Assembly (NCBI GenBank): GCA_028687375.1
Contig: JAQUAG010000018.1
Span: 1 to 45,518 of the forward strand
Length of the DNA: 45,518 nt
From: Arcobacteraceae bacterium
GTDB lineage: Bacteria > Campylobacterota > Campylobacteria > Campylobacterales > Arcobacteraceae
Direction: 5' to 3'
This document shows, one piece after another, positions 874 through 32,752 of the stretch. The position numbers and the translations under genes were made by a program. Position 1 is the stretch's first letter. Each line of letters starts with the position of its first letter. Below the pieces are notes generated by a model. It ran no database searches. It was not told where the DNA came from and saw only the letters and a list, made by a program, of their open reading frames with translations.

Positions 874-2238
874 TTGTTGGAACAATCTAATAAAGAACTT
901 GATAAGTTTTGGGAAATTTATCAAAAGCAAGACAGAAAAAAAATCGAAGAATTTACAAAGTATATGGATAAATTTGCTGTAAATTTCAATCTTTACAAAG
1001 ATGGAAATTTTATAGAGAGATCTTTACCTTTTGATGTTGTTCCTAGAATTATAGGGGCTAGCGAATTTGATAAGATGGAGAGAGGACTATCTCAAAGGGT
1101 AAAAGCTTTAAATCTATTTTTAGAAGATTTATATACAGATAAAAAAATTGTAAAAGATGGGATAATCCCTGAAGAGTTTATCTATCAAGCAAAAGGATTT
1201 TTGAAAGAACTTGTAGGTCATTCCCCTTCAAAAAAAATAAGAACACATATCAATGGAATTGACCTTGTAAAAGATACAGTTACAAATGATTGGATTATTT
1301 TAGAGGATAATTTACGAGTTCCAAGTGGGGCTAGTTATCCACTTTCTATTCGAGATACTTACAGAAAAATCTACCCAGAATTTTTTGAACAATTAAAAAT
1401 CGAACCAATCAAACACTATCCTGAGTTTATAAAAGAATCTATGGATTATGTAAATTGTGGTGGGATAAATGTTGTTTTAACACCAGGAAGATTTAACTCT
1501 GCATACTATGAACACAGTTACTTAGCTCAAATGAGTGATGCACTTTTAGTGCGAAATCACGAACTTGTGGTAAAAGATAAAGTGGTTTATTTTAAAAATT
1601 ATGATGGAAAACTGGTAAGAGTTGGGGCAGTTTATAGAAGACTTGATGATGAGTTTTTAGACCCAAGTTTTTTTAACCCTGAAAGTCTTATTGGAGTTCC
1701 TGGTATTATGGAAGCTTATTTAGCTGGAAATGTTGCACTTTTAAATGCACCTGGAAATGGTGTTGCGGATGATAAAGGGATATATTATTTTGTACCTAAG
1801 ATGATTAAGTACTATTTAGGAGAAGAAGCTCTTCTTAAAAATGCACCTACATATCTTCCATATTTTCCTGAAGATATGAAATATATGATGGAAAATATGC
1901 ATAAACTTGTAATCAAAGATGTAGCAGAAGCTGGTGGATATGGGGTGATGTTTGGACATAGTATGTCAAAAATCCAAATCGAAGACCTTAAAACTATCAT
2001 CAAAGCAAATCCAAGAAGATTTATAGCACAAGAGCTTATTGAGTTCTATGATGAAGAGTGTTATATAAATGATCAGTTGCTTCCAAGAAAAGCAGATTTT
2101 AGAGCTTATGTTGTTATGGCTGAAGAGCCGAAAGTTTGGAAATGTGGGCTTACTAGATATGCTATGGAAGCTGGAAATTATCTTGTAAATTCTTCTCAAG
2201 GTGGAGGATTTAAAGATACATGGGTTATGGGAGAATAA
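874..2238 (+). CDS. Circularly permuted ATP-grasp ligase (stand-alone form)
   Basis: A 454-residue protein of the circularly permuted ATP-grasp type (formerly DUF404/DUF407). Family marks are 'RGLSQRVKALNLFLEDLY' near residue 70, 'DNLRVPSGASYP' near 148, 'LTPGRFNSAYYEHSYLA' near 205, 'YRRLDDEFLDP' near 252 and the C-terminal 'SSQGGGFKDTWV'. These enzymes are predicted to form amide bonds using ATP, possibly making or tagging short peptides; the substrate is unknown. The start is TTG at 874, with GGAGG six bases upstream; the ATG at 861 is in another frame and ends at once. It heads an operon with an alpha-E gene directly behind. A fused paralog lies at 12725-15211. Confidence 0.9.
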   Translation: MLEQSNKELDKFWEIYQKQDRKKIEEFTKYMDKFAVNFNLYKDGNFIERSLPFDVVPRIIGASEFDKMERGLSQRVKALNLFLEDLYTDKKIVKDGIIPEEFIYQAKGFLKELVGHSPSKKIRTHINGIDLVKDTVTNDWIILEDNLRVPSGASYPLSIRDTYRKIYPEFFEQLKIEPIKHYPEFIKESMDYVNCGGINVVLTPGRFNSAYYEHSYLAQMSDALLVRNHELVVKDKVVYFKNYDGKLVRVGAVYRRLDDEFLDPSFFNPESLIGVPGIMEAYLAGNVALLNAPGNGVADDKGIYYFVPKMIKYYLGEEALLKNAPTYLPYFPEDMKYMMENMHKLVIKDVAEAGGYGVMFGHSMSKIQIEDLKTIIKANPRRFIAQELIEFYDEECYINDQLLPRKADFRAYVVMAEEPKVWKCGLTRYAMEAGNYLVNSSQGGGFKDTWVMGE

Positions 2239-2239
2239 T

Positions 2240-2902
2240 ATGACACAACTACTAACAGCAAATTCAGCACTAAGTCTTTATTGGCTTGGAAGATATCTTG
2301 AAAGGGTAGAAGCTTCATTAATTGATATCAATACAGCATACGATAATATTATTGATGTTGATAAAAATGAGGGTGTAGCACTGTATGAAAAGCTTGGAAT
2401 TGAGATAGAGTATACAAACTCATCTGATTTTTTAAATATTGCAATGTTCGGAGAACATCCATCAAATTTGTATGAACTTTTGAGTTTCGCAAGAGAAAAT
2501 GCGATAGTAGCTAGAAGCTATATTGAAGCTGAAGCATTTGGTTCAATTATCGAACTTCACAAACATTTTGAGATTGCTCAAAAAAATGGAGCTTTTGTTG
2601 ATTTTAGATTTATAGATACAGCTATGTCATTAATAAGTGAAATATGGGGTGAACTTACAAGAAAACAAACGAGAAATATACATGATTATTTTATAGCTAT
2701 GGGAAAAAATGTTGAAAAAGTTGATATGCATTTACGACTTGCTAAAGATAAAGAATTTGCACTTATTGTGATGAAAGAGATTGATACTATCGTTTCTATT
2801 TTGGCACCAAACGCACAATTTAAACCACATACGATTGATGAAGATGATGAAGTGATACTATCTTCTATCAATAATAAAATAAATAAAATAATAGTGGAGT
2901 AG
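2240..2902 (+). CDS. Alpha-E domain protein, partner of ATP-grasp ligase
   Basis: A 220-residue all-helical protein of the alpha-E family (PF04168, DUF403). The N-terminus 'NSALSLYWLGRYLERVEAS' is the hallmark of the family. Alpha-E proteins are nearly always found with circularly permuted ATP-grasp ligases, next to them or fused, and are thought to assist in the same peptide-forming reaction. The open frame extends back to 2201, but the ATG at 2240 is the better start: it falls one base after the ligase stop, has GGAG at 2229-2232, and begins right at the conserved domain. The same domain forms the C-terminal half of the fusion protein at 12725-15211. Confidence 0.88.
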   Translation: MTQLLTANSALSLYWLGRYLERVEASLIDINTAYDNIIDVDKNEGVALYEKLGIEIEYTNSSDFLNIAMFGEHPSNLYELLSFARENAIVARSYIEAEAFGSIIELHKHFEIAQKNGAFVDFRFIDTAMSLISEIWGELTRKQTRNIHDYFIAMGKNVEKVDMHLRLAKDKEFALIVMKEIDTIVSILAPNAQFKPHTIDEDDEVILSSINNKINKIIVE

Positions 2903-2908
2903 TAGGTT

Positions 2909-3856
2909 TTGAAAGTAAAAACAAAAGAGATTTTTAGTTCAGAACTTCCTGTTGGAGAAACTTTGTCTATTAAGAGGACAAGGTATGAAGGGAAGACAAA
3001 GAATGAAAATAAAAAAAGAATATCAATAGTAAGTGGAATACATGGTGATGAGCTTGAGGGGCAACTTGCTATTTATCTTTTGGCAAAATGGTTAAATGAA
3101 AATGGGGATAAATTAAGAGGTATTGTTGATATTTATCCAGCAGTAAATGCTCTTGGTGTTGATACAATTACAAGGGGATTTCCTATCTATGAAGTTGACC
3201 TCAATCGAGCTTTTCCAGGTGGAAAAAATGACTTTTTACCTGGGCAAATTGTGTATGCACTCACACAAGATATAAAAGGAAGTGATATTGCTATTGATAT
3301 CCATTCGAGTAATATTTTTCTTCGTGAGATACCACAAATTAGGATAAATAAAGAATTTTCTCCATCAACTTTACCACTTGCAAAAGAGTTAAATTGTGAC
3401 TTTATTTGGATTCACGATGCGGTAACTGTTTTGGAAGCAACATTTTCACATACTTTAAATTCTTTAGGGACAAAAACTTTAGTAGTTGAGATGGGTGTAG
3501 GGATGAGACTTACGAATAGATATGGTGCTCAACTTTTAAATGGGATGTTAAATCTTATGAAAAAAGAGGGGATTATTGAAACAGATGAGAATTTTGAAGC
3601 AAGAACGCCATTTACATCTGAAACAGGGGATGTTTACTATATGAATGCTCCTAAAAGTGGACTTTTTGTTCAGTTTCTAGACCATTGTGCTATTGTGAAA
3701 AAAGATGAAAAAATTGGTGATATTGTCAATCCATTGACTGGCGAAGTATTAGCTGAACTCAAAGCCCCAAACGATGGAATCTTGTTCACTTTAAGAGAAT
3801 ATCCTGTTGTGTATGAAGGTTCACTTATAGCTAGAATTTTTGGAGAAAGTAAGTGA
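2909..3856 (+). CDS. Succinylglutamate desuccinylase/aspartoacylase family zinc hydrolase
   Basis: A 315-residue M14-like metallohydrolase of the AstE/AspA family, predicted to cleave an amide or peptide bond. Zinc ligands are visible: H45 and E48 in 'GIHGDELEG' and H132 in 'AIDIHSSN'. 'DLNRAFPGG' at 97-105 carries the usual substrate-binding Arg, and E194 in 'LVVEMGVG' is the likely catalytic Glu. The C-terminal 90 residues look like the barrel domain common in this family. The start is TTG at 2909, six bases after the alpha-E stop. Lying in an operon with a peptide-bond-forming ligase, it probably trims or removes the ligase product. The true substrate cannot be read from sequence. Confidence 0.85.
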   Translation: MKVKTKEIFSSELPVGETLSIKRTRYEGKTKNENKKRISIVSGIHGDELEGQLAIYLLAKWLNENGDKLRGIVDIYPAVNALGVDTITRGFPIYEVDLNRAFPGGKNDFLPGQIVYALTQDIKGSDIAIDIHSSNIFLREIPQIRINKEFSPSTLPLAKELNCDFIWIHDAVTVLEATFSHTLNSLGTKTLVVEMGVGMRLTNRYGAQLLNGMLNLMKKEGIIETDENFEARTPFTSETGDVYYMNAPKSGLFVQFLDHCAIVKKDEKIGDIVNPLTGEVLAELKAPNDGILFTLREYPVVYEGSLIARIFGESK

Positions 3857-4785
3857 AAAAAATAGAGATACTACGAATAGAATCATTAAGTAGAGCCCCT
3901 TTAGTTATTGAGGGATTTTTATTTGAGGGAAGTGACAAAAATGCACCATCTTTAGCGATAGTTGGTGCTATGGATGGAGATGCTATTTTACCTTTATATT
4001 GTGCAGCTGGGATTGTTGAATTTTTAAGACACACGGTTGCTAAAGATAAAATAAAAGGGAATATTCTTGTAATTCCATCAATAAATCATTATGCACTTAA
4101 CATTAGTGAAAGATTTTGGCCATTAGATAAAACAGATTTGAATATGATGTTTCCAGGATACGATGGTGGTGAAACAACTCAAAGGATTGCCGCAAAAATT
4201 TTTACTGCAATTCAAGGGTACACTTATGGGATAAATCTTGAAAGAAGAAGAGATCCATCAAATTGTTTACCACATATTAAACTTTTTAAAAGTGGTTACG
4301 AGGATATAAAAGGGGCTAAAAAGTTTGGATTTAAAGTGATTCATCATAGTGAACTTACATCTATTGATACAGTAACTTTACAATACAACTGGCAACTTTG
4401 GGGAACAAAAGCTTATTCGATAGTTTGTCCTGTTGATAATTTACTTGATAGTAATGATTCAACTCAAATCCATCAAGCGATGGTACGATTTATGAATAAA
4501 AGTGGAATTATAGAATACGATATGTTCAATGCGTATGAATCAAATGTTATTAACAGAAATAATATTAGGGTAGTAAAAGCAAAAAAAAGTGGTATTTTTC
4601 TTCCAAAAGAGAGAGTTGGAAATTATGTCACGAAAGGGCAGATTATTGGTGTTATTATCCATTCTTTAAGAGGGGAAATTATAAATGAAATCAAAGCATC
4701 TTGTGATGGGATGATAACTTGTTATTTTAAAAATTCACTTATTCTAGAAAATGCGGTTGCCTTTAGAATAGCTAAAATTAGATAA
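3853..4785 (+). CDS. AstE/AspA-family paralog lacking zinc ligands (likely pseudoenzyme)
   Basis: A 310-residue paralog of the preceding hydrolase: the overall pattern is kept ('DLNMMFPG' at 95-102, the same C-terminal barrel-like domain ending in 'NAVAFRIAKI'), but the active site is not. Where the neighbour has HGDE, this protein has M40-D-G-D43; the third zinc ligand His is E130 ('GINLERRRD'); the substrate Arg of DLNR is Met; and the catalytic Glu region reads 'YSIVCPVDN'. It therefore should not bind zinc in the standard way. GTG start at 3853 overlaps the upstream stop by four bases (GTGA), with GGAG 8 bases before, so the two are translationally coupled and may form a heteromer in which this is the regulatory or binding subunit. 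Confidence 0.8.
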   Translation: MKKIEILRIESLSRAPLVIEGFLFEGSDKNAPSLAIVGAMDGDAILPLYCAAGIVEFLRHTVAKDKIKGNILVIPSINHYALNISERFWPLDKTDLNMMFPGYDGGETTQRIAAKIFTAIQGYTYGINLERRRDPSNCLPHIKLFKSGYEDIKGAKKFGFKVIHHSELTSIDTVTLQYNWQLWGTKAYSIVCPVDNLLDSNDSTQIHQAMVRFMNKSGIIEYDMFNAYESNVINRNNIRVVKAKKSGIFLPKERVGNYVTKGQIIGVIIHSLRGEIINEIKASCDGMITCYFKNSLILENAVAFRIAKIR

Positions 4786-4845
4786 AAAAGTTACCAAAAA
4801 ATTACTATTAAAAGGATACTTTTTAAGGTAGCTTAGCTATCATTT

Positions 4846-4870: not shown

Positions 4871-6301
4871 ATGTTTTTTGGAAACAGTAAAGTAAAAGAT
4901 GAGGAAATAGCTCAATTAAAGTTGCAAATTGAAAATCTTGTAAAAGAGAAAGAGCAAAAAGAAAGAGATATTTCAAGTTTACAAAGCGAACTCCAAAATG
5001 TAAACAAAAACGAGTTAGAAGAGCTTAAGCTTCAAAATAAAAGATTTCAAGAAATCGCTTCAATTTCTCAAGAAGAGGGTATAGTTGCTTTTAAAAGTGA
5101 TGGAACACTTTTTTTTATGAATAATAAAGCAAAAGAAAATATCAAGTCAAATAACACAGCAAATGTTTTTAAAGCTATTACAAGTGGGAACGATAAAATC
5201 ATTTTAGAAGATTGTGAAGCATCAATGGTTACTAAAAAAGTAGATGACATCTATATCGCATCTTTACGAAAAACATCAATCCACGATAACAAAGATGATG
5301 GACTCCTTACAAAACACAATCATAACATTAACCATGCTTTATCTGATACTCAAAGTGTTTATTTAGCACTTTTAGGTGATTTACAAAGTATGATGACAGA
5401 ATCAAAAGCAACAGCAAGTGGTTCAAATGAAGGGTTAACTCTTACTCAAAATATAGTAAGTGATACAACAAATCTTTATCAACAAATAGAAACAGAAGAG
5501 GAGATAGTAAACTCTTTAGTGAAAAAAAGTAGTGATATTTCAGAAGCTATTACTGTAATTGATCAGATTGCATTTCAAACAAATATCCTCTCTTTAAATG
5601 CAGCAGTTGAAGCAGCAACTGCTGGAGAAGCAGGAAAAGGATTTGCTGTTGTTGCACAAGAGGTACGAAACCTAGCAACAAGAAGTGCAGATGCAGCAAA
5701 AACTATAAAAGTTGTGGTAGAAGCGATACAACAAGAGACAAGACGAATGAAAAGTAGTTCTGATGTAGTTTCTTCTGTCGTAAATGAAACTAAAAAGAGA
5801 GTTGATGTGCTTATAACTCTTATGAACCAATTTCAAAAAAATTCTTCAAGATCTGTTTTTGAAGTTGAAAGTATAAGTAATAAAATTTTTATTAATCTTG
5901 CGAAGTTAGATCATGTTATTTATAAAAATAACCTATATCAATTGATTTTTGGAGATAGTAATAAATTTAATGCTGTAGATCATCATAATTGTAGACTTGG
6001 GAAATGGTATGATACAGGACTTGGGAAAGAGCAATTTAGTCATGTGAAATCATTTAAAGGGCTTGAACCATTCCATAAAATCGTTCATGATGAAGCGAAT
6101 GCTTTAGCTCATGAATGTTCAGGAAATAATGTTGTATGTACAAAACAGATTATAGAAGATAAAATTGAAAAAATTGAAAATAGTAGTCATGGAGTTTTTG
6201 AATATCTAGATAGAATTTTAGAAGAAAAAAATAATGATATTATGCTTCATGCACAAAAAAATTTATTTGAAAGTAAAGGAAAAGTAAACAATGGAAAATA
6301 A
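4871..6301 (+). CDS. Soluble methyl-accepting chemotaxis protein with CZB zinc-binding domain
   Basis: A 476-residue cytoplasmic chemoreceptor. Order of parts: coiled coil (about 5-75), a small PAS-like stretch (about 77-140), the signalling hairpin whose tip reads '[17 protein letters not shown]' and '[13 protein letters not shown]' (about 235-275), and a C-terminal chemoreceptor zinc-binding domain. The CZB ligands are visible as the His of 'KLDHVI', the Cys of '[10 protein letters not shown]' and the His pair of '[10 protein letters not shown]'. No membrane segment or HAMP domain is present. It resembles Helicobacter pylori TlpD, a soluble CZB receptor that senses oxidants through zinc. 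The last 11 bases overlap the following response regulator gene, so it may feed that regulator as well as, or instead of, the flagellar pathway. AAGGAAAAAGA precedes the ATG. Confidence 0.9.
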
Positions 6302-11824: not shown

Positions 11825-12715
11825 TTATTCTATTACTTTGACATCTACTTTTACTCTCAATAAACTTTTTCCACTACTTTGCACAACCCCTTTAAGTGGT
11901 GCAATATCGTGGTAATCTCTCCCATATCCTAGGATAATATACTCTTCGTTTGGAAGTTTATTATTCGTTGGATCAAAATCAACCCAGCCAATATCAGGGA
12001 TATAAACACTAAACCAAGCATGACTTGCATCTGTTCCAAAAAGTTTCTCTTTTCCTTTTGCTGGATAAGTTCTAATATATCCACTCACATATCGTGTAGC
12101 TATCCCAATAGTGCGAAGTGCAGATATAGCAAATTGAGCGAAATCTTGACAAACCCCTTTTTTCTCTTTGAATATCACATCAATAGGTGTAGTAACATCA
12201 CTAAAGCCACTTTCAAAATCAAAATCTTCAAAAATTCGTCCCATAAATTCATACACTGAATCAAATAATCTTCTTTCATCCCAAAATGATTTTTTTGTAT
12301 ATTCAACTATATCATTATTGGCTATTGGTATTAAATCTGTGTGAAATAAATAGAGTTTAGAACAGTTATCCGTTGTATGGAGAGTTTTAAATCTCTCTTT
12401 AAATTGTAAATATGTCATAGTTGAATTTTTATACGATTGTATCTCTTCATAAATAGTAGTTTCATCTCTTTTTACTTTTGAAAAAGCTTTTAAAGTCAAT
12501 TTTTTATGAGCTTCTTTAAAAGATATAAACTTATTTGTATTGTTGAAAAAATCTATAAATTCACTCTCTTCATAAGGGGTAGGGGAGAGTTCTAAACGAT
12601 ATTCTAATAGCTCTTGTGTTGGAGTATTTTTTGGTTTTAATCTTGCAATATTATGGCTAAAAGTTACAAAATTTGCATATTCAAAAGAGGTTTCGTGATA
12701 AATTTCATAAATCAT
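11825..12715 (-). CDS. Bacterial transglutaminase-like cysteine protease/ligase (short form)
   Basis: A 296-residue protein with the N-terminal bacterial transglutaminase domain (PF08379 type; 'HNIARLKPKNTP') followed by a transglutaminase-like core (PF01841). The catalytic triad is visible: C189 in 'KGVCQDFAQF', H232 in 'DASHAWFSVY' and D248 in 'GWVDFDPTN'. Family members cleave or exchange amide bonds. It is the last gene of a minus-strand operon behind the ATP-grasp/alpha-E fusion, with a gap of nine bases. This three-part set is a known conserved association, predicted to make and process a peptide product. No signal peptide is seen, so it acts in the cytoplasm. Confidence 0.9.
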   Translation of the reverse strand: MIYEIYHETSFEYANFVTFSHNIARLKPKNTPTQELLEYRLELSPTPYEESEFIDFFNNTNKFISFKEAHKKLTLKAFSKVKRDETTIYEEIQSYKNSTMTYLQFKERFKTLHTTDNCSKLYLFHTDLIPIANNDIVEYTKKSFWDERRLFDSVYEFMGRIFEDFDFESGFSDVTTPIDVIFKEKKGVCQDFAQFAISALRTIGIATRYVSGYIRTYPAKGKEKLFGTDASHAWFSVYIPDIGWVDFDPTNNKLPNEEYIILGYGRDYHDIAPLKGVVQSSGKSLLRVKVDVKVIE

Positions 12716-12724
12716 AATGCTCTC

Positions 12725-15211
12725 CTAATCATTATTATGTGAAAAATAGGTATTTGTAAGCTCATCTGAAGACTTAATAAGCAATACAGAGATTTCAGAT
12801 AAAAAACTATCAAGCTCTTCATACAAAAATTGTTTATCATCTATTTTTAAAAGTGTAGCTGGATTTGAAAGTTTGATTTTAGAATATATCTTAAAAATTG
12901 GTTCCTCACAACTACTCAAATAGTCACTGTTTTTTTGTTTTGGAAGCTCTTTTAAATTTCCTAAAAGTTCAGTGATGATATAGATGAGTGATTTTGGATA
13001 TTTTGCATTAAATATCAAAAATTCTATCACATTTGATAAATCAAGGCTCGATTGATAGTAAGCTCTATATGAGTTGTAACTTTCATAAGAGTTCAGTAAA
13101 CTATCAATAACCTCATATTGAAGCATCTTTTCATGCTTCATAGTAAGAAGTGATCGAAGTTTTGAAACAAGGAGTAAAGATACTTCAATTTTCCCTCCAA
13201 TATCAAATAAAATCAACCCTTGCTCTTTAAAAATAGATTCATCAATCAACTCTTTGTAAGCCATCAAATAGATAAGGAGATTATTGATTTGATTGATATG
13301 CTCTCGTACAGGTTGATTTTTTTGCATTGTATAGCTGTACCAATTTTTATGCATCTTATCAAATATTCTCCAAGCATCAATCGTAAGGAGATTTTTTACA
13401 TTGATATTTGAATTTGAAAGCATATTAAGTGTAAAAGTCAAACTTCCAACTCTTGTTTTATCTTTGATGATACTTACCATCTCATTGATAGTAGTATTAT
13501 CTTTAAGTTCCAAAAATCCAGGATATGTCATAGTTAGATGGGTAATTGCATTATTTAATATTTTAGATATTAAATTTGTATTATCTAATCCTTCAAGTTT
13601 ATGAATATTTATCATATTTTTAAGACTAAATCGTACCATCCTTGAAGTTATGATTGCTCTGTTGATATATCTTCCAAGCCAAAATAAGTTTTCAGCCCTT
13701 TTGGTTGATATATTTTCTAATTTTGAATCGATATAAACTCTTTGACTCAAAGGATTAATCACTTTGGCATCATCTGTACCAAGTATCCATAAATCTTTAC
13801 TATAACCCATCTTTTGCCCTGAAAACATCAATGAATCTTTTGAAGCAGCAACTCTCACAAGTCCACCATTCATAACTTCATATCCATTTTCTCCAAGATA
13901 ACTAAATGATCGTAATATAGCATTTCTAGGCTCTATTTCATTGCCTGTAAAAGAGGGAACCGTTGAAAAATTGATATGTTCCTGACCAATATATGCTTGA
14001 GGAAAAAGTTTGATTTTTTCTTTGAGCTTTTCAATATCTTGGTTCATTAAATTTTTTCCAATATACGTTTCTACTTTTTCTGTTTTATCTATCTTTTTGA
14101 TAATAAGTGTCGTGATATTTTTAAGAACATATTCCAATTCACTCTCTTGACCACACCACCAAGTAGCAATTTGAGGCAAAATAAGCTCTTCATTTAAAAA
14201 GTATTTACAAATATTTTTCATAAATGGATTAAGCCCATGATTTTCTAAAATACCAATTCCCATAGGATTTATAATCGAAATATTATCATTTCTAGCAACA
14301 TTTAAAAGTCCTGTAACACCAAGTTGTGAGTCATTTTTAAGTTCCAAAGGATCACAGTATCTATCATCAACTCTACGAAGAATTCCATCCACTTTTCGTA
14401 GTCCATTGAGATTTTTAAGCCAAATTTGATTGTCTCTAGCAAGGAGATCTTCCCCTTGTACCAAAGCCAAATCCAAAAAAGCACTTAAATATGAATGTTC
14501 AAAATAAGTTTCATTATGAGGTCCTGGAGTAAGTAGAACGATAAGGGGATTCTCTTGCTGTTTTTTTGTGGATGATTTTAACATCTTTTTAAATCCATCT
14601 ATAAAACTAGCAAGCTTTTTGGTATTGATATTTGGATAAAGTTCATTTGCAATAGAGTTCATTGTAAGACGATTTTCTATCGCATAACCAAGCCCAGATG
14701 GTGCTGAAGTTCTATCGTTGATAAGCCAAAACTTCCCATCAGGTCCACGGCTAATATCAGCAGCATAGAATTTTAAACTATAATAATCTTTATTTTTAAA
14801 TCCAACAATTTCAGGGATAAATCCTTTATGTGAAAAAATAATTTCAGGAGGGATAATCCCATCTTTTAAAAGTTTTTGTTCACTATAAATATCTTTAAAA
14901 ATAAGGTCAAGTAGTTTTGCCCTTTGTTTGAGTCCTCTTGTAACTTTATCCCATTCCTCCTCTTTTAAGACAAACGGAATAGGGTCAAGATTCCATTTTC
15001 GATTGATTCCATCTGGGTCATTATAAATATTATAAGTAACCCCATTATCTTCAAGTCGCCAATCAATCTCAAACTGCTTTTGCTCTAATTGTTTGATACC
15101 AGCTTTTTCAAGAGCATTGGCAATTTCAAGCCAATGCTCTTTAATAGCTCCATTACTATTAAACATCTCGTCAAAAGAGGAATTTAATCTACAATTATCA
15201 AATAAATCCAT
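12725..15211 (-). CDS. Circularly permuted ATP-grasp / alpha-E fusion protein
   Basis: An 828-residue fusion of the two proteins encoded separately at 874-2902. The ATP-grasp half (about 1-500) has 'RGLKQRAKLLDLIFKDIY', 'APSGLGYAIENR', 'LTPGPHNETYFEHSYLS', 'LRRVDDRYCDP' and 'GGLVRVAASKDS'. The alpha-E half starts near residue 510 with 'RAENLFWLGRYINRA'. The predicted role is ATP-driven amide bond formation on an unknown substrate. The ATG directly abuts the stop of the upstream transglutaminase (no spacer) and the small transglutaminase follows nine bases after, so all three are one operon. The sequence has diverged clearly from the split version, so this is an old paralog rather than a recent duplication. 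Confidence 0.9.
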   Translation of the reverse strand: MDLFDNCRLNSSFDEMFNSNGAIKEHWLEIANALEKAGIKQLEQKQFEIDWRLEDNGVTYNIYNDPDGINRKWNLDPIPFVLKEEEWDKVTRGLKQRAKLLDLIFKDIYSEQKLLKDGIIPPEIIFSHKGFIPEIVGFKNKDYYSLKFYAADISRGPDGKFWLINDRTSAPSGLGYAIENRLTMNSIANELYPNINTKKLASFIDGFKKMLKSSTKKQQENPLIVLLTPGPHNETYFEHSYLSAFLDLALVQGEDLLARDNQIWLKNLNGLRKVDGILRRVDDRYCDPLELKNDSQLGVTGLLNVARNDNISIINPMGIGILENHGLNPFMKNICKYFLNEELILPQIATWWCGQESELEYVLKNITTLIIKKIDKTEKVETYIGKNLMNQDIEKLKEKIKLFPQAYIGQEHINFSTVPSFTGNEIEPRNAILRSFSYLGENGYEVMNGGLVRVAASKDSLMFSGQKMGYSKDLWILGTDDAKVINPLSQRVYIDSKLENISTKRAENLFWLGRYINRAIITSRMVRFSLKNMINIHKLEGLDNTNLISKILNNAITHLTMTYPGFLELKDNTTINEMVSIIKDKTRVGSLTFTLNMLSNSNINVKNLLTIDAWRIFDKMHKNWYSYTMQKNQPVREHINQINNLLIYLMAYKELIDESIFKEQGLILFDIGGKIEVSLLLVSKLRSLLTMKHEKMLQYEVIDSLLNSYESYNSYRAYYQSSLDLSNVIEFLIFNAKYPKSLIYIITELLGNLKELPKQKNSDYLSSCEEPIFKIYSKIKLSNPATLLKIDDKQFLYEELDSFLSEISVLLIKSSDELTNTYFSHNND

Positions 15212-18200
15212 TTAGTTCTTTGTCCATCTCTTTCTTAAATCCATCGTATGTGGATATTCTGGATTTGTTCCTATTTTTTGGATAACAAATACTTTTCCAC
15301 CCTCTTTTGGAACTATTTTTCTTGTTTCACTTGTTGCAGAGTTATTTGGTACAACAACTGGTGCTGTTTGTTCTACCGTTTCCCCTTGCGAGTGATTGAA
15401 GTCCCAGTATCTATTGATTCTTCTTGATTCTGCTTCATACGAATTCACAGGGAAAGTTTCATAACTTCTTCCACCTGGATGTGAAACAAAGTAGTTAAAT
15501 CCACCGATTGATTTTTTATTCCAAGTATCTACAACATCAAAAGTAAGTGGTGTATCAACTCCAATAGTTGGATGAAGAGCCGACCATGGTTGCCATGCTC
15601 TATATCTTACCCCACATACAAATTCCCCATCGATATTTGTTTTTACAAGTGGTATCTCAACTCCATTACAAGTGATAACATATCTTTCACTTACAAAATC
15701 TTTCACTTTTATTTGAAGTCGTTCAAGTGAACTATCAACATATCTAGCTGTCCCTTGACTTCCACTCTCTTCACCCAAAACATGCCAAGGCTCAATAGCT
15801 GTTCGTATCTCAATATCCATATTTTGGATAACTGTCATCCCATGTAGTGGAAATCTAAACTCAAAAAATGGGTCAAACCAATCAAGCTCAAAAGGATATC
15901 CTTCATCTTGAAGATATTCAACAACACTTTTTAAATCCTCTTTTACATAATGTTCAAGTAAAAACTCATCGTGAAGTCTTGTTCCCCAACGAACTAGTTT
16001 ATGTTTGTATGGATTTCTCCAAAATGAACTTACCAATGCTCGTACAAGAAGCATTTGTAACATCGCCATTTGGTAGTGTGGTGGCATATCAAAAGCTCGA
16101 AGTTCTAAAATCCCAAGTCGCCCCGTTGAGCTATCTGGTGAATAAAGTTTATCGATACAAAACTCACTTCTATGGGTATTTCCTGTGATATCTGTAAGCA
16201 TATGTCTAAACAATCTATCGGTAAGCCAAAAAGGGACATCCCCCTCTTCAGGAATCTGAGAAAATGCAATCTCTAACTCATAAAGATTTTCCATTCTCCC
16301 CTCATCAACTCTAGGTGCTTGAGAAGTAGGTCCGATAAATGCTCCACTAAAAAGATAAGAAAGCCCTGGATGATGTTGCCAAAAAGTTATAAAACTTTGG
16401 AGTAATCGTGGATTTCTCAGAAGTGGAGAATCACTTGGGGTCATTGCCCCAATCGTAACATGGTTACCACCACCAGTTCCTGTGTGTTTCCCATCTGTCA
16501 TAAACTTTTCAGTCCCAAGTCTACACATCCTAGCATCTTCATAAAGAGTGCTTAGATTGTCGCTTAACTCTTTCCACGAAGTTGCTGGTTGGATATTGAC
16601 CTCAATGACCCCTGGGTCTGGAGTCACTTTGATTCTATCTGTTCGTAAATCGTGTGGTGGCTCATATCCTTCAAGTATCACTTTCATATCAAGTGCTTTC
16701 GCTGTTTCCTCAATAGAAGCGATAAGGTCTAAAAACTCCTCAGTATCTGTAAGTGGTGGGAGGAATAAACAAAGTTTTTCATCTCGTATCTCTGCACACA
16801 TTGCTGTTTTTACAAAAGCTGAATAGCTATTTAATATCGTTGTAGTTTCATCTATATTTTTAGCTCTCTCTTTTACATTTGTAGTGTAGTCTCCAAGCTC
16901 TGGAAATGAAGCAAATAAATCAACTTCAAAATTTTGTTCAAGTTCTATATGTGGTTTTGCTAAAAGCGAACCAAGAGGAAGTCTTAATCCAATAGGGGAA
17001 TTTCCAGCACTTAAAAACATATGTTTTCTTCTAAATTCCCATTTTGAAGTGATCCATTTTGTTTTTCCAAACCCGATTGGTAAAACAAATCCAACCTCAT
17101 TATTAAGCCCTTTTGATAATTTCTCAGCTATTGTTTGTCTCTCTAGCGAATCATCAAGGTCAAATTCAAGTGGGTCGATATCAAGAGGCATCTCTGCCTC
17201 TTTCATGATGTAATAGACAGGGTCTTCATAAGCCGTTACAATATTTTCTGGACTGACCCCTAGTACAAGTGCAAGATAAGAAAGGAATTTTTTCGCATCT
17301 GCTGTTGTGTAGGGATATGATTTATTTTTATCAGCCAAAAGTTCTGGATTTTCCCAAACAGGAACACCATCTTTTCTCCAATAGATACTCGTTTGCCATC
17401 TAGGGATTGGCTCCCCTGGATACCATTTCCCTTGAGCGTGATGTAAAAGTCCACCATTTGTAAAAGAGCTAAGAAGTTTTCGTGATAAATCGTTTGCGAG
17501 TTCCCTTTTATGGTCCCCATCTGCTGCTGTGTTCCATTGAGGAGATTCCATATCATCAATACTCACAAAAGTTGGCTCTCCACCCATAGAGAGTCTCACA
17601 TCATTTGCGACCAAATCTTTATCAACCTCAAATCCTAAGTTATAGATAGCTTCCCATTGCTCCTCTTTGTAAGGTTTCGTAACACGAGGCGATTCAAAAA
17701 TTCTTTGCACTTTATTTTCATACTCAAAAGTAACTTCACAAGGATCACTCAAACCTTCAATCGCATGAGCTGAATCGTAGTGTGGTGTGCAAGCAAGTGG
17801 AATATGCCCCTCACCTGCAAAAAGTCCACTAGTAGAATCCAATCCAATCCAACCAGCACCTGGTACATAAACCTCAGTCCAAGCATGAAGGTCTGTAAAA
17901 TCCTCCTCAGGACCACTTGGACCATCGAGCGATTTTATATCAGCTGTAAGCTGTACAAGGTATCCAGATACAAATCTTGAAGCAAGTCCCAAATGACGAA
18001 GCACTTGAACAAAAAGCCAAGAGAAATCTCTACAACTTCCAAGTTTTTTACCCAAAGTATATTCGCAAGTTTGCACCCCAGGTTCAAGTCGTATTGTGTA
18101 GTTTAAGTGTGTATATATTTTTTGATTAAGGGCTACAAGAAAGTCAATAATTGGCATCTTACTTATATCAACAGAGGCAACAAACTCTTTGATAAGGTCA

Positions 18201-18571
18201 CTATTATCCTCTATTTCAAGATATGGAATAAGCTCTTTTTGAAGTGTTTTGCTGTAACTAAAAGGGTAATCTTTCGCACTATCTTCCACAAAAAAGTCAA
18301 ATGGATTTATTGTAACCATATTAGCTAGAACTTCTACATCAATATGGAGTTTATCGGTTTTTTCAGGAAAAACTATCCTTGCCATATAGTTTCCAAATGG
18401 GTCTTGTTGCCAATTTATAAAGTGATTTTCAGGCTTGATTTTAAGGGAATAAGCCTCGATTGGAGTTCTACTGTGAGGTGCAGGACGAAGTCTTATAATA
18501 TGAGGACTTAAACTTATTTTTCTATCATAGTTATAGTGAGTTTTGTGTGATAATACTACTTTTAGTGCCAT
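15212..18571 (-). CDS. Large transglutaminase-like protein with DUF2126 domain
   Basis: A 1119-residue protein, the usual length for this family. The N-terminal 300 residues are a transglutaminase core with triad C180 ('LGSCRDFSWLF'), H229 ('DLHAWTEVY') and D245 ('GWIGLDSTSG'). The remainder is the DUF2126 region (PF09899), recognisable by 'MGGEPTFVSIDDMESPQW', 'KWYPGEPIPRW', 'GGGNHVTIG' and 'SHPGGRSYETFPVN'. DUF2126 is thought to be related to amidoligases of the glutamine synthetase type, which would place bond-making and bond-breaking in one chain. It is the first gene of the minus-strand operon 18571-11825, with TAAGGAG before the ATG. The family call is firm; the substrate is unknown. 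Confidence 0.92.
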   Translation of the reverse strand: MALKVVLSHKTHYNYDRKISLSPHIIRLRPAPHSRTPIEAYSLKIKPENHFINWQQDPFGNYMARIVFPEKTDKLHIDVEVLANMVTINPFDFFVEDSAKDYPFSYSKTLQKELIPYLEIEDNSDLIKEFVASVDISKMPIIDFLVALNQKIYTHLNYTIRLEPGVQTCEYTLGKKLGSCRDFSWLFVQVLRHLGLASRFVSGYLVQLTADIKSLDGPSGPEEDFTDLHAWTEVYVPGAGWIGLDSTSGLFAGEGHIPLACTPHYDSAHAIEGLSDPCEVTFEYENKVQRIFESPRVTKPYKEEQWEAIYNLGFEVDKDLVANDVRLSMGGEPTFVSIDDMESPQWNTAADGDHKRELANDLSRKLLSSFTNGGLLHHAQGKWYPGEPIPRWQTSIYWRKDGVPVWENPELLADKNKSYPYTTADAKKFLSYLALVLGVSPENIVTAYEDPVYYIMKEAEMPLDIDPLEFDLDDSLERQTIAEKLSKGLNNEVGFVLPIGFGKTKWITSKWEFRRKHMFLSAGNSPIGLRLPLGSLLAKPHIELEQNFEVDLFASFPELGDYTTNVKERAKNIDETTTILNSYSAFVKTAMCAEIRDEKLCLFLPPLTDTEEFLDLIASIEETAKALDMKVILEGYEPPHDLRTDRIKVTPDPGVIEVNIQPATSWKELSDNLSTLYEDARMCRLGTEKFMTDGKHTGTGGGNHVTIGAMTPSDSPLLRNPRLLQSFITFWQHHPGLSYLFSGAFIGPTSQAPRVDEGRMENLYELEIAFSQIPEEGDVPFWLTDRLFRHMLTDITGNTHRSEFCIDKLYSPDSSTGRLGILELRAFDMPPHYQMAMLQMLLVRALVSSFWRNPYKHKLVRWGTRLHDEFLLEHYVKEDLKSVVEYLQDEGYPFELDWFDPFFEFRFPLHGMTVIQNMDIEIRTAIEPWHVLGEESGSQGTARYVDSSLERLQIKVKDFVSERYVITCNGVEIPLVKTNIDGEFVCGVRYRAWQPWSALHPTIGVDTPLTFDVVDTWNKKSIGGFNYFVSHPGGRSYETFPVNSYEAESRRINRYWDFNHSQGETVEQTAPVVVPNNSATSETRKIVPKEGGKVFVIQKIGTNPEYPHTMDLRKRWTKN

Positions 18572-23571: not shown

Positions 23572-24552
23572 ATGGAAAATCATTTTATAAACACTATAGC
23601 AATTAAAGATTTTAAATGTTTTAAAGATTTTCAAGCTGATGGATTTGGAAGAGTCAATCTTATTGGTGGAAAAAATAATGTTGGAAAAACTGCTTTTATG
23701 GAAGCATGTTGTATTAATGTATATGCTAATGATATTAGTAAGCTAACCAATGTATTAAGTAGTCCAAAACATGCTAGAAATTTTTTAGAAATTGGTGCTC
23801 GAATAGTAGTATCGAAAGAAGAAGCAAAAGATTTTTTAGAATCAGCAAATAATTATCATTCAATATCCAATATTAATGAAGTGACATTTAACATTTTTCA
23901 AAACAATGGAATTAAAGAATATTATTTTAAATATCACGATAAAGAACTAACCGTAAATATAAATGATTTTTCTTATGAAAGAAAAAAACAAGAAAATATT
24001 AAATTTATAACTCAATTAGGATTTACAAAACTACAACTTAAACAAGTTTTTATCAGTATGCAGACAAAAGATAAAGAGGAAATTTTATATAAATATATTA
24101 ATAATTTTGACCCAAATGTAACCAACTTTAAAATTATAGGGGGAGATGAACCATCAGCAAAAGTTCTCGATAGGGAGGAATATCAGGAAATTAATGAATT
24201 TGGGGATGGTCTTAAACATTATATATCAATTATTTGTTCACTCTATACTTGTGAAAATGGCTATCTTTTTATTGATGAGATTGACAATGGCATCCACTAC
24301 ACTCAACTTGATGAATTATGGGAGATTATCCTTTCTGTTTCTAAAGAACAAAAAGTTCAAGTTTTTGCCACAACCCATTCTAAAGAGTGTATAGAATCTT
24401 TTAATCGTATTCAACTAAAATTGCAAGATAAAGAAACTTATTATTTTGAGATGGCTAGAAATGTACAAACAAATAAAATTTTCATTTCTCAAATTGATAG
24501 TGAACAATTAGAATATGGATTATCTAATAATGAAAGGCTTCGAGGTGAATAA
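23572..24552 (+). CDS. OLD/RecF-like AAA ATPase of a two-gene module
   Basis: A 326-residue ABC/SMC-type ATPase of the AAA15/AAA21 group. Walker A is 'GGKNNVGKTA' (32-41), preceded by the family's 'IKDFKCFKDF'. A signature-like 'EFGDGLKHYIS' (about 209-219), Walker B 'YLFIDEIDNGIH' (about 229-240) and the switch His in 'FATTHSKE' follow. It is short, lacking room for a fused nuclease, and the TOPRIM-like protein is encoded by the next, overlapping gene. This split arrangement resembles OLD-family and PARIS (AriA/AriB) antiphage systems. Located between an exonuclease gene and tex. AAAGGG precedes the ATG. Defence function is inferred, not shown. Confidence 0.85.
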   Translation: MENHFINTIAIKDFKCFKDFQADGFGRVNLIGGKNNVGKTAFMEACCINVYANDISKLTNVLSSPKHARNFLEIGARIVVSKEEAKDFLESANNYHSISNINEVTFNIFQNNGIKEYYFKYHDKELTVNINDFSYERKKQENIKFITQLGFTKLQLKQVFISMQTKDKEEILYKYINNFDPNVTNFKIIGGDEPSAKVLDREEYQEINEFGDGLKHYISIICSLYTCENGYLFIDEIDNGIHYTQLDELWEIILSVSKEQKVQVFATTHSKECIESFNRIQLKLQDKETYYFEMARNVQTNKIFISQIDSEQLEYGLSNNERLRGE

Positions 24553-25174
24553 TCTTCTAATTGTTGAAAGTAATAACGATAAGTTTTTTATTCAAGCATT
24601 ATTAAATCATATGAATCTACATATAGAGATTGATAAACCTATATGCTTGGTAAATGATTTTGAGTGTATCGGTGGTATAGATAATTTAGAGCAAAAATTA
24701 AAGTTCGTATCTAATCAAACACAAAAACAATCCATTCAAAAAATAGGAATTATTTTTGATGCTGATGAAGTTGGTGTTGAAGTAAGAACAAGACAAATCG
24801 AAGAAAAAATCAATTTAGTTTTTGGAGAGACAAGAAATATTGAGTTTCAAATTTATATAATGAACTTAAAGGGTAAAGGTGAACTTGAAGATATTTTAAA
24901 AAGTATAAAAACCGAAAAATCAAATTATGCAGATTGTTTGTCAGAATGGAAAGAATGTATAGAACAAAAAGGTGAAGCCGTAACCAAGAAAATCTTTAAT
25001 AAATTTTGGATAAATAATTACATTATGTATGATACTTGTACTGCAAGTAAACATAAAGGGAAAAAAGATACATATTGTATTTTTGAATATGCATTAAAAG
25101 AGAAAAAGATTTGGAACTTTGACCATGAAATTTTAGATGATTTAAAAGAATTTTTAAATCAACTTTCTCAATAA
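24545..25174 (+). CDS. DUF3226 TOPRIM-like protein, partner of the ATPase
   Basis: About 209 residues of the DUF3226 type, with TOPRIM features: E8 in 'LLIVESNNDKFF' and the D72-x-D74 pair in 'GIIFDADEVG', which would bind metal for phosphodiester cleavage. 'GKGELEDILKSI' matches the later part of the family. The start is uncertain: ATG at 24515 or 24530 is possible, but GTG 24545 is preferred because AAAGG lies seven bases before it and it starts right at the TOPRIM strand. It overlaps the ATPase gene by eight bases, so the two are coupled. In PARIS the effector nuclease belongs to a different family (DUF4435), so this pair would be a relative at most. Confidence 0.8.
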   Translation: MNNLLIVESNNDKFFIQALLNHMNLHIEIDKPICLVNDFECIGGIDNLEQKLKFVSNQTQKQSIQKIGIIFDADEVGVEVRTRQIEEKINLVFGETRNIEFQIYIMNLKGKGELEDILKSIKTEKSNYADCLSEWKECIEQKGEAVTKKIFNKFWINNYIMYDTCTASKHKGKKDTYCIFEYALKEKKIWNFDHEILDDLKEFLNQLSQ

Positions 25175-29323: not shown

Positions 29324-30656
29324 ATGTGGAATAATTTACTGTGTAAAAAAAGATATTATGGATTAGATGCAATAGAAGCGGATAAAAATGAGGATTATTT
29401 TAGAAGTAGTTTTCACAAAGATTATGACAGAATTATTTTTTCCAACTCTTTTAGAAGGTTATCAAAAAAAACGCAAGTTCATCCTCTTTCGACAAATGAC
29501 CATGTGCATAATAGACTCACACATAGTTTAGAAGTTGCAAGTGTTGGGAGAAGCTTAGGCTTAAGAGCAGGAGTATTTCTACAAACAAAATATCCTGAAT
29601 TGGAGATAAATCCTTACGATGTAGCGTATATTATCCAAACTGCTTGTTTAGCCCACGATATAGGAAATCCCCCTTTTGGACACGCTGGGGAAGAGGTGAT
29701 AAAAGAGTGGTTTGCAAAACATAAAGATGGATACTTTTTAGAAACATTATCAAAAGAGCAACTCAATGATTTTACCAATCTTGATGGAAATGCTCAAAGT
29801 TTTAGAATAGTAAGTCAACTAGAAAATAATTTGTTTTCTGGTGGTTTGAATCTCACTTTTACAACACTTGGAACTTTGATTAAATATCCTTATTCTTCAA
29901 ATAATTGTATCAATACAGGCAAATCAAAATTTAACTATTTTCAAAGTGAAACGAAATTTTTTAGACTTTTATTTACAGAACTTGGATTAGTGAAATCTGA
30001 TGGGACTTTTAAAAGACATCCTTTGTCTTATTTGATGGAAGCTGCTGATGATATTTGTTATGGATTGCTTGATTTACAAGATGCTTTTGAACTTCATATT
30101 ATCACATTAGAGGATATAAGAAATATTTTTATTTTGATTTGTGGCAAAGAAGAGGTTGATAAAATTTATAGCAACAATGATGCAGATATCAAAAAAATTT
30201 CAAGATTGGTTGCCTTTTCAATTAACATCTTAGCAAGACATGTAATGGAGGTTTTTGAAGAGAATTTTAACTCAATTATGGGGGATTCAACCTAAAGATT
30301 TGATAGATAAATTTTCAAACTCGCAGTTTAAAGAGGGGATAGAAAAAGCTAAGAAACTTGGTCACGAGAAGATATTTAATGAAAAAAGAAAGATTGAACT
30401 TGAGCTTGGAGCTTATAATATAATAGAAACTCTATTGAATAACTTTATCCTAGCAACATACGAATTTTATATCCAAAAAGATGAAAAAAAACTCTCTTTT
30501 AAAAGTAAAAGAGCCTTAGAACTTATGGGAGAAGATAAACCTCTTTTGGATGAAAATCTTTATACTATGTACCAAAGGGTGATAGATTATATCGTTGGGA
30601 TGACCGATAATCATGCAAAATATATAGCAAATCAATTTAATGGGATGGGGTATTGA
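29324..30656 (+). pseudogene. dgt: dGTP triphosphohydrolase gene interrupted by a one-base frameshift
   Basis: Two overlapping frames together give one full dGTPase (HD superfamily) of about 443 residues. The first part (29324-30295) has the N-terminal 'SNSFRRLSKKTQVHP', the HD metal motifs 'HNRLTHSLEVA' and 'CLAHDIGNPPFGHAGE', and 'MEAADDICYGLLDLQD'. It ends early at TAA 30293-30295 after 'NFNSIMG'. The normal continuation '[12 protein letters not shown]' onward is in the next frame. Removing one G from the G5 run at 30280-30284 restores a single ORF. The enzyme hydrolyses dGTP to deoxyguanosine and triphosphate. The catalytic HD part is intact, so a truncated product could keep some activity. 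Sequencing error, true mutation or frameshifting are all possible. AAGGA precedes the ATG. Confidence 0.85.
30255..30656 (+). CDS. C-terminal reading frame of the broken dGTPase gene
   Basis: Open frame of 133 codons that carries the C-terminal helical part of dGTPase from about 'PKDLIDKF' on, ending 'ANQFNGMGY'. Its ATG at 30255 lies in the end of the first frame and its first ten or so codons are an out-of-frame reading of that region, with no convincing ribosome binding site. It is best regarded as the second piece of the gene at 29324, not an independent protein. Confidence 0.5.
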
Positions 30657-30737: not shown

Positions 30738-32012
30738 ATGTTTTTACAATTTAGCGTAAATAATTATCGTTCAATCAAAGATACAGTAACTTTTAGTATG
30801 GCTACTGCTTCTAAAGATAATAATAATTTTTTCAGCGTAAGAAAATATGATTTACTCAATAGTGCTGTTATTTATGGTGCAAATGCCAGTGGTAAAAGTA
30901 ATATTTTAAAAGCGATGGCATTTATGGGTAATCTTGTTTTAAATAAAACAAAAGTTATCCAATCAACAGATACTTTACCGCATGACCCTTTTAGACTTAA
31001 TACTTCTACAAAAGATGCTTCAAGTAGTTTTGAAATTGTTTTTTTTATTGATGAAATTAAATACAGATATGGTTTTGAGATTGATAATACAACAGTTTAT
31101 AGTGAGTGGCTTTTTTCAGATGAGAAAGGGAAAGAGTCAAAATTATTTTACAGAGACAGTGAGAGCGACCACTATGTTAATCCACAAAAATTTAAAGAGG
31201 GATTTATCTTTTTTGAAAATAGTACATCAAAAATTAAAATTTCAAAAAATCAACTTTTTATTTGGAAATGTGACCAAAATGATGGGGAGATTTCAAAAAG
31301 TATTTTACAATGGTTTAGCCGTTTTAATATGATTGATGGGATAAACCACGATGGATATGTTCATTACACAATGAAAAAAATGGAAGATAGCACATTTAAA
31401 AATGAGATAATTACTTTAGTTAAAACTGCTGATATTGGGATTGAAGATATTGTACTACAAGAAGATGAAGTACCAACGGAGATATTTGAAAAATTACCAA
31501 TTCCTGAAGATTTAAAACAAGAAATTTTGAAAGATGGTGGCTTGAAATCGGTAAAAATAAACACTTATCATAATGTTTTTGATGAAAATGATGCTTTTGT
31601 AGGGAAAGAAGTTTTTGAACTAAACGATGAAGAATCACTTGGAACACAAAAGTTTTTTAAAATCTCAGCACCAATTTTAAATACCTTAAAAGAGGGAAAA
31701 ATTTTATTAATTGATGAACTTGATGCTAGTTTACATCCAATGCTTACAAAACATCTTATTAAACTTTTTCACGATAAAAGTATCAATACAAAAAATGCAC
31801 AGCTTATTTTTGCGACACACGATACAAATCTTTTAAAACCACAACTTTTTAGAAGAGACCAAATCTGGCTTACAGAAAAAGATAAATATGGCTCAACAAA
31901 TATCTACTCTTTGGCTGAAATTAAAAATGTACGAAAAACGGAAGATTTTGAAAGTCAATATATTCAGGGGAAATATGGAGCTATCCCTTATCTTGGAAAG
32001 TTTGAGTTTTAA
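30738..32012 (+). CDS. RloA-like AAA ATPase (ATP-binding protein, AAA_21 type)
   Basis: A 424-residue ABC-type ATPase. Walker A is 'YGANASGKSN' (46-55) after the typical 'FSVNNYRSIKDTVTFSM' start. The signature-like 'ESLGTQKFF' (about 303), Walker B 'ILLIDELDASLHP' (about 322-334) and switch His 'FATHDTNLL' (about 355) are intact, as is the C-terminal 'YGAIPYLG'. Such ATPases are paired with RloB proteins in restriction islands and abortive-infection systems (the AbiL type is similar). It has its own promoter, AAGGA before the ATG, and is followed after two bases by the RloB-like gene. Probably the sensor or energy module of a defence system; this is inferred from the family. Confidence 0.88.
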   Translation: MFLQFSVNNYRSIKDTVTFSMATASKDNNNFFSVRKYDLLNSAVIYGANASGKSNILKAMAFMGNLVLNKTKVIQSTDTLPHDPFRLNTSTKDASSSFEIVFFIDEIKYRYGFEIDNTTVYSEWLFSDEKGKESKLFYRDSESDHYVNPQKFKEGFIFFENSTSKIKISKNQLFIWKCDQNDGEISKSILQWFSRFNMIDGINHDGYVHYTMKKMEDSTFKNEIITLVKTADIGIEDIVLQEDEVPTEIFEKLPIPEDLKQEILKDGGLKSVKINTYHNVFDENDAFVGKEVFELNDEESLGTQKFFKISAPILNTLKEGKILLIDELDASLHPMLTKHLIKLFHDKSINTKNAQLIFATHDTNLLKPQLFRRDQIWLTEKDKYGSTNIYSLAEIKNVRKTEDFESQYIQGKYGAIPYLGKFEF

Positions 32013-32014
32013 TT

Positions 32015-32752
32015 ATGGCAAAACGAGGTGGAGATAAAATTTTTCAACGACAAAAAAAGGAATTAAAAAAACAAGATTTCGAGCGACAAAAAGAGATTAA
32101 AAGTAAAATTCCAGATATTATCATAGCTTGTGAAGATGAAGTTTCTGCACCTACATATTTTCAAATGATAGTTAAAAAACTCATAAACAGTAAACTTATC
32201 ACTCAAGATTCGTTTGTAATAGCAAATCACAACCACAATAATCCAACTGGAGTTTTAAAAGATTTAACAAATCACAAATGCGATAACGGAAAAACTTATA
32301 AAAACTTTGAGCATAAATGGATAGTGATAGATAGAGATATTGAGCGAGTAAATGGTGGCGGACACAATAAGGAAGATTTTAATAATGCCTTATCAAATGC
32401 CAAAAGATTACAAGTTGATGTGGCATACTGTAACGACTCTTTTGAACTTTGGTATTTGCTCCATTTTGATTATCGAGATACTGGAATTTTTAGAGATGAG
32501 ATACTCAAAGAGGTTATCAAAAAACTAAAAGCAAAAGATACTCATAAATTTACCAATCTTGATACACAAACTATAAAACAAGCAAATTATACGAAGTTAT
32601 TATTTGAAGAACTTCTTGAACTCCAACCTACAGCGATACACAATAGCAAAAAACTTTTATCATCCTATGGAACAACTCACAATCCACAAATTGATAATCC
32701 ATCAACTACAGTACATTTATTGGTGGAGGTACTAAATTGTCTAAACAAATAA
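32015..32752 (+). CDS. RloB-like protein (TOPRIM-related putative nuclease)
   Basis: A 245-residue RloB family protein (PF13707). Marks: E40 in 'IIACEDEVSAPTYF', D106-x-D108 in 'WIVIDRDIE', and 'AYCNDSFELWYLLHF', the strongest family motif. E and DxD are in the order expected for a TOPRIM-like active site, so a nuclease role is plausible. The N-terminus is highly basic (KRGGDKIFQRQKKELKKQ), fitting nucleic acid contact. It starts two bases after the RloA-like stop and overlaps the next gene's start by 16 bases, making a three-gene translation unit. Confidence 0.85.
   Translation: MAKRGGDKIFQRQKKELKKQDFERQKEIKSKIPDIIIACEDEVSAPTYFQMIVKKLINSKLITQDSFVIANHNHNNPTGVLKDLTNHKCDNGKTYKNFEHKWIVIDRDIERVNGGGHNKEDFNNALSNAKRLQVDVAYCNDSFELWYLLHFDYRDTGIFRDEILKEVIKKLKAKDTHKFTNLDTQTIKQANYTKLLFEELLELQPTAIHNSKKLLSSYGTTHNPQIDNPSTTVHLLVEVLNCLNK

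Follow-up and report, generated by a model that had tools for sequence, protein, structure and literature searches.

Within the window, the whole 45,518-nucleotide stretch that we analysed, a four-gene operon on the plus strand begins with a circularly permuted ATP-grasp protein (874-2238; CP_ATPgrasp_2, PF14403, E 2.9e-131), a predicted amide ligase, and continues with an Alpha-E protein (2240-2902; PF04168, E 1.8e-16), whose ATG is read from the sequence at 2240, whereas the mechanical open reading frame begins at 2201. The third gene (2909-3856) encodes an AstE/AspA-family metallohydrolase, hereafter ACT, with intact H45-x-x-E48, H132, DLNR100 and E194 (PF24827, E 1.6e-16). The fourth (3853-4785) encodes an AstE/AspA-fold pseudoenzyme, hereafter PSE, in which the metal site and the catalytic Glu have been lost; its frame starts with GTG and runs for 310 amino acids without internal stops. 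The four-base GTGA stop/start overlap between the two genes, described in an earlier note on this DNA, is real, its GTG spanning 3853-3855 and its TGA 3854-3856 (plus strand, read from the sequence). Downstream of PSE, a consensus scan alone marks a terminator-like hairpin (4827-4841, plus strand), a possible end of the operon, and a promoter scan of the operon returned fewer sites than were found in shuffled sequences. Just past the operon (4871-6301, plus strand) is the gene of a chemoreceptor with a CZB zinc-binding domain, and several relatives also have a chemoreceptor near the operon. The minus strand carries an associated cluster of a transglutaminase, an ATP-grasp/Alpha-E fusion and a transglutaminase/DUF2126 putative amidoligase (11825-18571); in many relatives this second amidoligase-type cluster directly adjoins the ACT-PSE operon.

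Further along the plus strand, the window holds an AAA ATPase with an RloB-like protein (30738-32752), a candidate phage-defence pair that matches AbiLi/AbiLii in PADLOC, and an AAA_15 ATPase overlapping a DUF3226 protein (23572-25174), which resembles PADLOC AbiLi and the candidate system PDC-M38. At 29324-30656 (plus strand), an HD-domain (dGTPase-like) frame is followed by an overlapping frame (30255-30656), and a frameshift could have divided what was a single gene. None of the four operon proteins has a PADLOC match, and a phage-defence role for the operon was rejected on that ground.

PSE and ACT are homologous, sharing 25% identity across 310 aligned columns (E 1e-21). Against AstE_AspA_cat (PF24827), PSE scores 32.2 bits, above the Pfam cut-off of 25; ACT also exceeds the cut-off, and the family is matched by 58/58 PSE of our comparison set (E up to 0.01). 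Since the profile that PSE passes describes a desuccinylase/aspartoacylase catalytic domain, proteins of this kind will probably be labelled as enzymes by automatic annotation. The AlphaFold models of both proteins are confident (pLDDT 91.6 for PSE and 89.4 for ACT), and each has DoeB (6twm) as its best structural match over the full length, with Z 30.0 for PSE (residues 1-309, rmsd 3.5 over 299 residues) and Z 30.2 for ACT. By this match, PSE has the two-part fold of a catalytic domain and a C-terminal beta domain. CphZ (8ein, 8eip) is matched by both models with Z of about 27-28, and the structural matches of PSE include Helicobacter pylori Csd4, for example the Q46H variant (4wcm). Csd4 works with Gln as a metal ligand.

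Relatives were gathered by scanning GTDB species genomes with two PSE peptide patterns, MFPGYxxGE[TS] and WP[LM]D[NK]TD[IL], which gave 591 relatives. The best 80 of these were taken for locus analysis: 38 from Campylobacterota, 25 from Bacillota, 14 from Bacteroidota, and one each from Spirochaetota, Thermoplasmatota (archaea) and a MAG labelled Proteobacteria. Because the scan selected for these two motifs, their invariance in the loci obtained is in part built in, but the patterns had no bearing on the missing His and Glu residues or on the constancy of Y178, W180, W183 and S189. Pattern-free whole-protein searches covered 298 genomes of the class and 150 genomes of the family of one Lachnospiraceae member. 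For the residue comparison, 58 PSE, 56 ACT and 15 outgroup proteins were used.

All five catalytic positions (H, E, H, E and R) are intact in 56/56 ACT and 15/15 outgroup proteins. The H-x-x-E...H zinc-ligand set of active AstE/AspA enzymes, present in every one of the 56 ACT, is missing from the PSE of the window, where alignment places D41 opposite H45, A44 opposite E48, E130 opposite H132, M98 opposite Arg100 and V191 opposite Glu194. The earlier note had proposed a pseudoenzyme of the AstE/AspA fold beside an intact paralog in a ligase operon, and this is borne out by the PF24827 match and by the contrast between 58 dead PSE and 56 intact ACT. Its statement that the fold motifs and the C-terminal domain are kept agrees with the full-length DoeB match (Z 30.0), and the alignment supports its replacement of H132 by E130 as well as its loss of the DLNR Arg and the catalytic Glu. 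The loss of the zinc ligands also stands, but the residues it had set against H45 and E48, namely M40 and D43, are each one residue too early. An alignment of orthologs, which it had suggested as a way to see whether the loss is fixed, gives a clear answer: none of the 58 PSE from Campylobacterota, Bacillota, Bacteroidota, Spirochaetota and Thermoplasmatota retains H45, H132 or E194. Fixation of this pattern in 58 homologs excludes a chance origin of the losses. An ortholog with an intact HxxE...H set at this locus, which would have pointed to recent decay, was found neither in the alignment nor in the whole-protein searches of the 298 class genomes and the 150 Lachnospiraceae-family genomes.

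The residues that took over the vacated positions are varied. The first-ligand position is occupied by R, E, T, D, S, N or M, the third by A, E, T, S or R, and the position of the catalytic Glu by Y, V, I, M or L, with Tyr in 34/58 PSE. The DLNR Arg is retained in 34/58 PSE but is gone in the group to which the window belongs. Across the PSE, the dead site comes in two forms, one in Bacillota, Bacteroidota and archaea and the other in Campylobacterota. The former is nearly uniform and reads R-E-A-Y-R in 28/58 PSE: the first and second His have given way to Arg and Ala, respectively, and the catalytic Glu to Tyr, with Glu48 and Arg100 retained. The Campylobacterota form is mostly x-x-E-V/I-M or similar.

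In a maximum-likelihood tree (quick search), the PSE form one clade and the ACT another, each with 100% SH-aLRT; the relation of these clades to the outgroup is less sure, as they are joined by long branches. Between close relatives, PSE has pairwise dN/dS values of 0.02-0.11 and ACT of 0.02-0.07; when the window is compared with its nearest relatives, they are 0.10-0.12 and 0.05-0.08, respectively. PSE is thus under purifying selection. The distance matrices of ACT and PSE agree closely (Mantel r 0.88, with 0/2000 permutations as high), which shows joint inheritance rather than contact, since congruent trees and adjacency are to be expected of any co-inherited operon genes.

The operon is maintained across phyla, with the ATP-grasp gene first. 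Almost all loci with sufficient upstream DNA show the order ATP-grasp, Alpha-E, (transglutaminase), ACT, PSE; an ATP-grasp gene lies within 5 kb upstream in 64 of the 66 loci where enough upstream DNA is available. A transglutaminase gene sits between Alpha-E and ACT in the Sulfurospirillum, Bacillota and Bacteroidota loci, and the transglutaminase of the window lies 7 kb downstream of the operon on the opposite strand. ACT is found immediately upstream of PSE in 79/80 loci (the best 80 of 591), the exception being truncated by a contig end, and the genes overlap in 59 of the 79 homologous pairs, by four bases in 37. Both genes occur in the same 23 of the 298 class genomes and neither occurs alone in any. 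Of the 27 class genomes that contain Alpha-E, 23 are those with ACT-PSE, and three of the remaining four (G122, G195 and G289) have an ATP-grasp gene beside Alpha-E and neither ACT nor PSE; this joint absence indicates that, within the class, the two genes are gained or lost together. In the Lachnospiraceae sample (150 genomes), PSE is present in 33/33 genomes with strong ACT matches. PSE without ACT occurs in two genomes of this sample: in G425, a PSE fragment is joined directly to an ATP-grasp fragment, through either misassembly or deletion, and in the MAG G362, a near-complete orphan PSE has no ACT within 5.2 kb and the genome has no strong ACT match. Locus L153 carries an orphan PSE frame (1519-2442, minus strand) with ACT, ATP-grasp and Alpha-E all missing nearby. 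The Lachnospiraceae genome G298 has two separate ACT-PSE pairs, on contigs 39 and 42 (loci L124, L127, L132 and L134), and several other genomes of the sample likewise have two. Among the open frames listed, none joins ACT and PSE in a natural fusion, and the plasmid collection contained no PSE, its matches being distant RimK-type or other AstE proteins.

PSE very probably has a role of its own, and this role is most likely that of a non-catalytic partner of ACT. Our main reading, to which we give a probability of about 0.6, is that PSE arose by an ancient duplication and was fixed as the non-catalytic partner of ACT, the two forming the hydrolase module of an ATP-grasp/Alpha-E/transglutaminase operon. 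The lack of fusions among the frames listed and the orphan PSE of G362 count against it. An unlikely but serious alternative is that PSE acts separately in the pathway as a binding protein, such as a carrier, a sensor or a substrate presenter, with a metal-free pocket and no stable complex with ACT. The apparent conservation of pocket-side residues without a metal site would suit such a protein, the operon supplies other possible partners in ATP-grasp, Alpha-E and transglutaminase, and G362 has an orphan PSE. However, PSE otherwise directly follows ACT, usually with an overlap, the transglutaminase is missing from many copies of the operon, and ACT and PSE are absent together from the three genomes that retain ATP-grasp and Alpha-E, all of which speaks against this alternative.

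The pocket itself bears on two further alternatives. PSE has fixed residues that ACT does not share, namely W89, E107, Y178, N179, W180, W183 and S189, which lie in segments that align with the active-site loops of ACT. D92, G106, R111 and A113 of PSE are common in the active outgroup too and are therefore ancestral rather than new in PSE. Conserved substitute His ligands, the kind of replacement that the earlier note had set against its own proposal, are lacking, since no column has His in 80% of the PSE sequences. E130, R132, D134 and C138 are invariant in the 21 PSE of the class, as is C290 in Campylobacterota. A metal site made of Asp, Glu and Cys only is just conceivable in PSE of the Campylobacterota group. 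From these residue patterns, we infer that the PSE pocket has been rebuilt in a metal-free form and would be used for substrate recognition or regulation.

Alternatively, the old active-site cleft of PSE could have acquired a new chemistry that needs no metal, which would make PSE an enzyme. The strong purifying selection, the invariant polar residues D92, E107, R111 and Y178, the near-uniform R-E-A-Y-R of 28/58 PSE and the invariant E130, D134, C138 and C290 of Campylobacterota are all compatible with this, but the cleft residues differ between the two PSE groups, which makes one shared chemistry hard to see, and the invariant D92, G106, R111 and A113 occur in the active outgroup and are hence not novelties. 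We consider this reading improbable. Still less credible is a hydrolase that binds its metal through non-standard ligands, in the manner of Csd4 with its Gln: Csd4 is among the fold matches and the Bacillota/Bacteroidota group keeps E48 and R100, yet the ligand positions are varied, the catalytic Glu is gone, no column has His in 80% of PSE, and the Ala at the third ligand position is unable to bind zinc. The idea that PSE is a recently decaying duplicate has the loss of catalytic residues itself as its single point in favour and is refuted by the orthologs and the dN/dS values, because the loss is fixed across five phyla and two domains, the frame is open nearly everywhere and dN/dS is 0.02-0.12; the catalytic loss in PSE is ancient.

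Systems that combine ATP-grasp, Alpha-E and transglutaminase are widespread, and their usual hydrolase candidate is Anbu. The Anbu operon consists of ATP-grasp, Alpha-E, transglutaminase and Anbu, and has been proposed to be a peptide-making system with Anbu as its peptidase (PMC6376114, PMC5666114), although Anbu was inactive on the substrates tried (PMC6376114). Anbu-type operons and related ones have been linked to nitrogen starvation (PMC8050072, PMC5491218). The ACT-PSE operon resembles this arrangement in having the ATP-grasp and Alpha-E genes in the same order and, in the transglutaminase-bearing loci, the same first three gene kinds in the same order; it differs in that ACT-PSE occupies the place of Anbu. 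No proteasome-type gene is present among the four operon genes of the window, and its whole genome has a single PF00227 match. In no class genome is there more than one PF00227 protein, and this one is taken to be HslV; the lack of a second such protein in the genomes with ACT-PSE means that none of them has Anbu beside HslV.

In more detail, the main reading runs as follows. A gene for an AstE/AspA-type zinc amidohydrolase would have been duplicated in ancient times to yield PSE, which lost its metal site and would have become fixed beside ACT, its active sister, as a partner without catalysis of its own. Together they would serve as the hydrolase module at the place of Anbu in the operon: the ATP-grasp ligase, with Alpha-E, would make an amide or isopeptide product, ACT with its zinc would hydrolyse that product, and PSE would bind ACT, its rebuilt metal-free pocket recognising or regulating the substrate. 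A bolder version, which we hold tentatively and at somewhat short of even odds, is that ACT and PSE form an obligate heteromeric amidohydrolase, with ACT as its enzyme half and PSE as its metal-free pseudoenzyme half, which stands in for Anbu on the removal side of a widespread bacterial and archaeal tagging or peptide-making system built on ATP-grasp, Alpha-E and transglutaminase, and that in one branch the Arg at the first-ligand position, beside the kept Glu48, replaces the zinc ion. The product of the system would be much easier to reach through a conventional zinc hydrolase such as ACT than through Anbu.

The earlier note had held that an active/inactive heteromer in a ligase operon would be new for this family. 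Our literature search, which took in neither the 2009 amidoligase survey of these operons (Iyer et al.) nor the CphZ discovery paper, found no active/inactive pair for AstE/AspA. The arrangement accordingly appears new for the family, but it is not new in kind, as paired M16 proteins from two-gene operons are known (PMC11266112). In MPP and in the prokaryotic M16 pairs, one subunit is active and its homologue inactive, the prokaryotic pairs being encoded in a two-gene operon (PMC11266112). ACT and PSE are likewise adjacent homologous genes, one of them catalytically dead and fixed in evolution; the fold is unrelated, and the complex and the need for the dead subunit have been shown for MPP/M16, whereas the ACT-PSE pairing is known from genes. 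If our main reading is true, the principle of paired active and inactive subunits extends to the AstE/AspA family. Closer in fold are the vertebrate M14 pseudopeptidases AEBP1, CPXM2 and CPD-III, in which the catalytic Glu is changed to Tyr (PMC11266112). They have a related carboxypeptidase fold and share this change with 34/58 PSE, but are eukaryotic and have no operon partner. CphZ, the cyanophycin dipeptide hydrolase, cleaves the dipeptide released from a ligase-made polymer (PMC10206079). It has the same fold and provides a precedent for the proposed role of ACT, in another pathway. We know of no pseudoenzyme partner of CphZ. The nearest solved structures are the AstE/AspA proteins DoeB/EutE (6twm, 6twl), 3cdx and 3na6; ACT keeps the full catalytic set, PSE differs from DoeB in lacking the metal ligands and the catalytic Glu, and identity to DoeB is only 15% for PSE and 19% for ACT. 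RimK-type operons also place an ATP-grasp ligase beside an AstE/AspA hydrolase, together with a RimB-like protease, and we observed such loci at L025-L031, L135 and L137-L139, several of them with an M20-like peptidase downstream. They differ from the ACT-PSE operon in their other type of ATP-grasp and in having a single active hydrolase, with the full catalytic set in all tested, and no pseudoenzyme.
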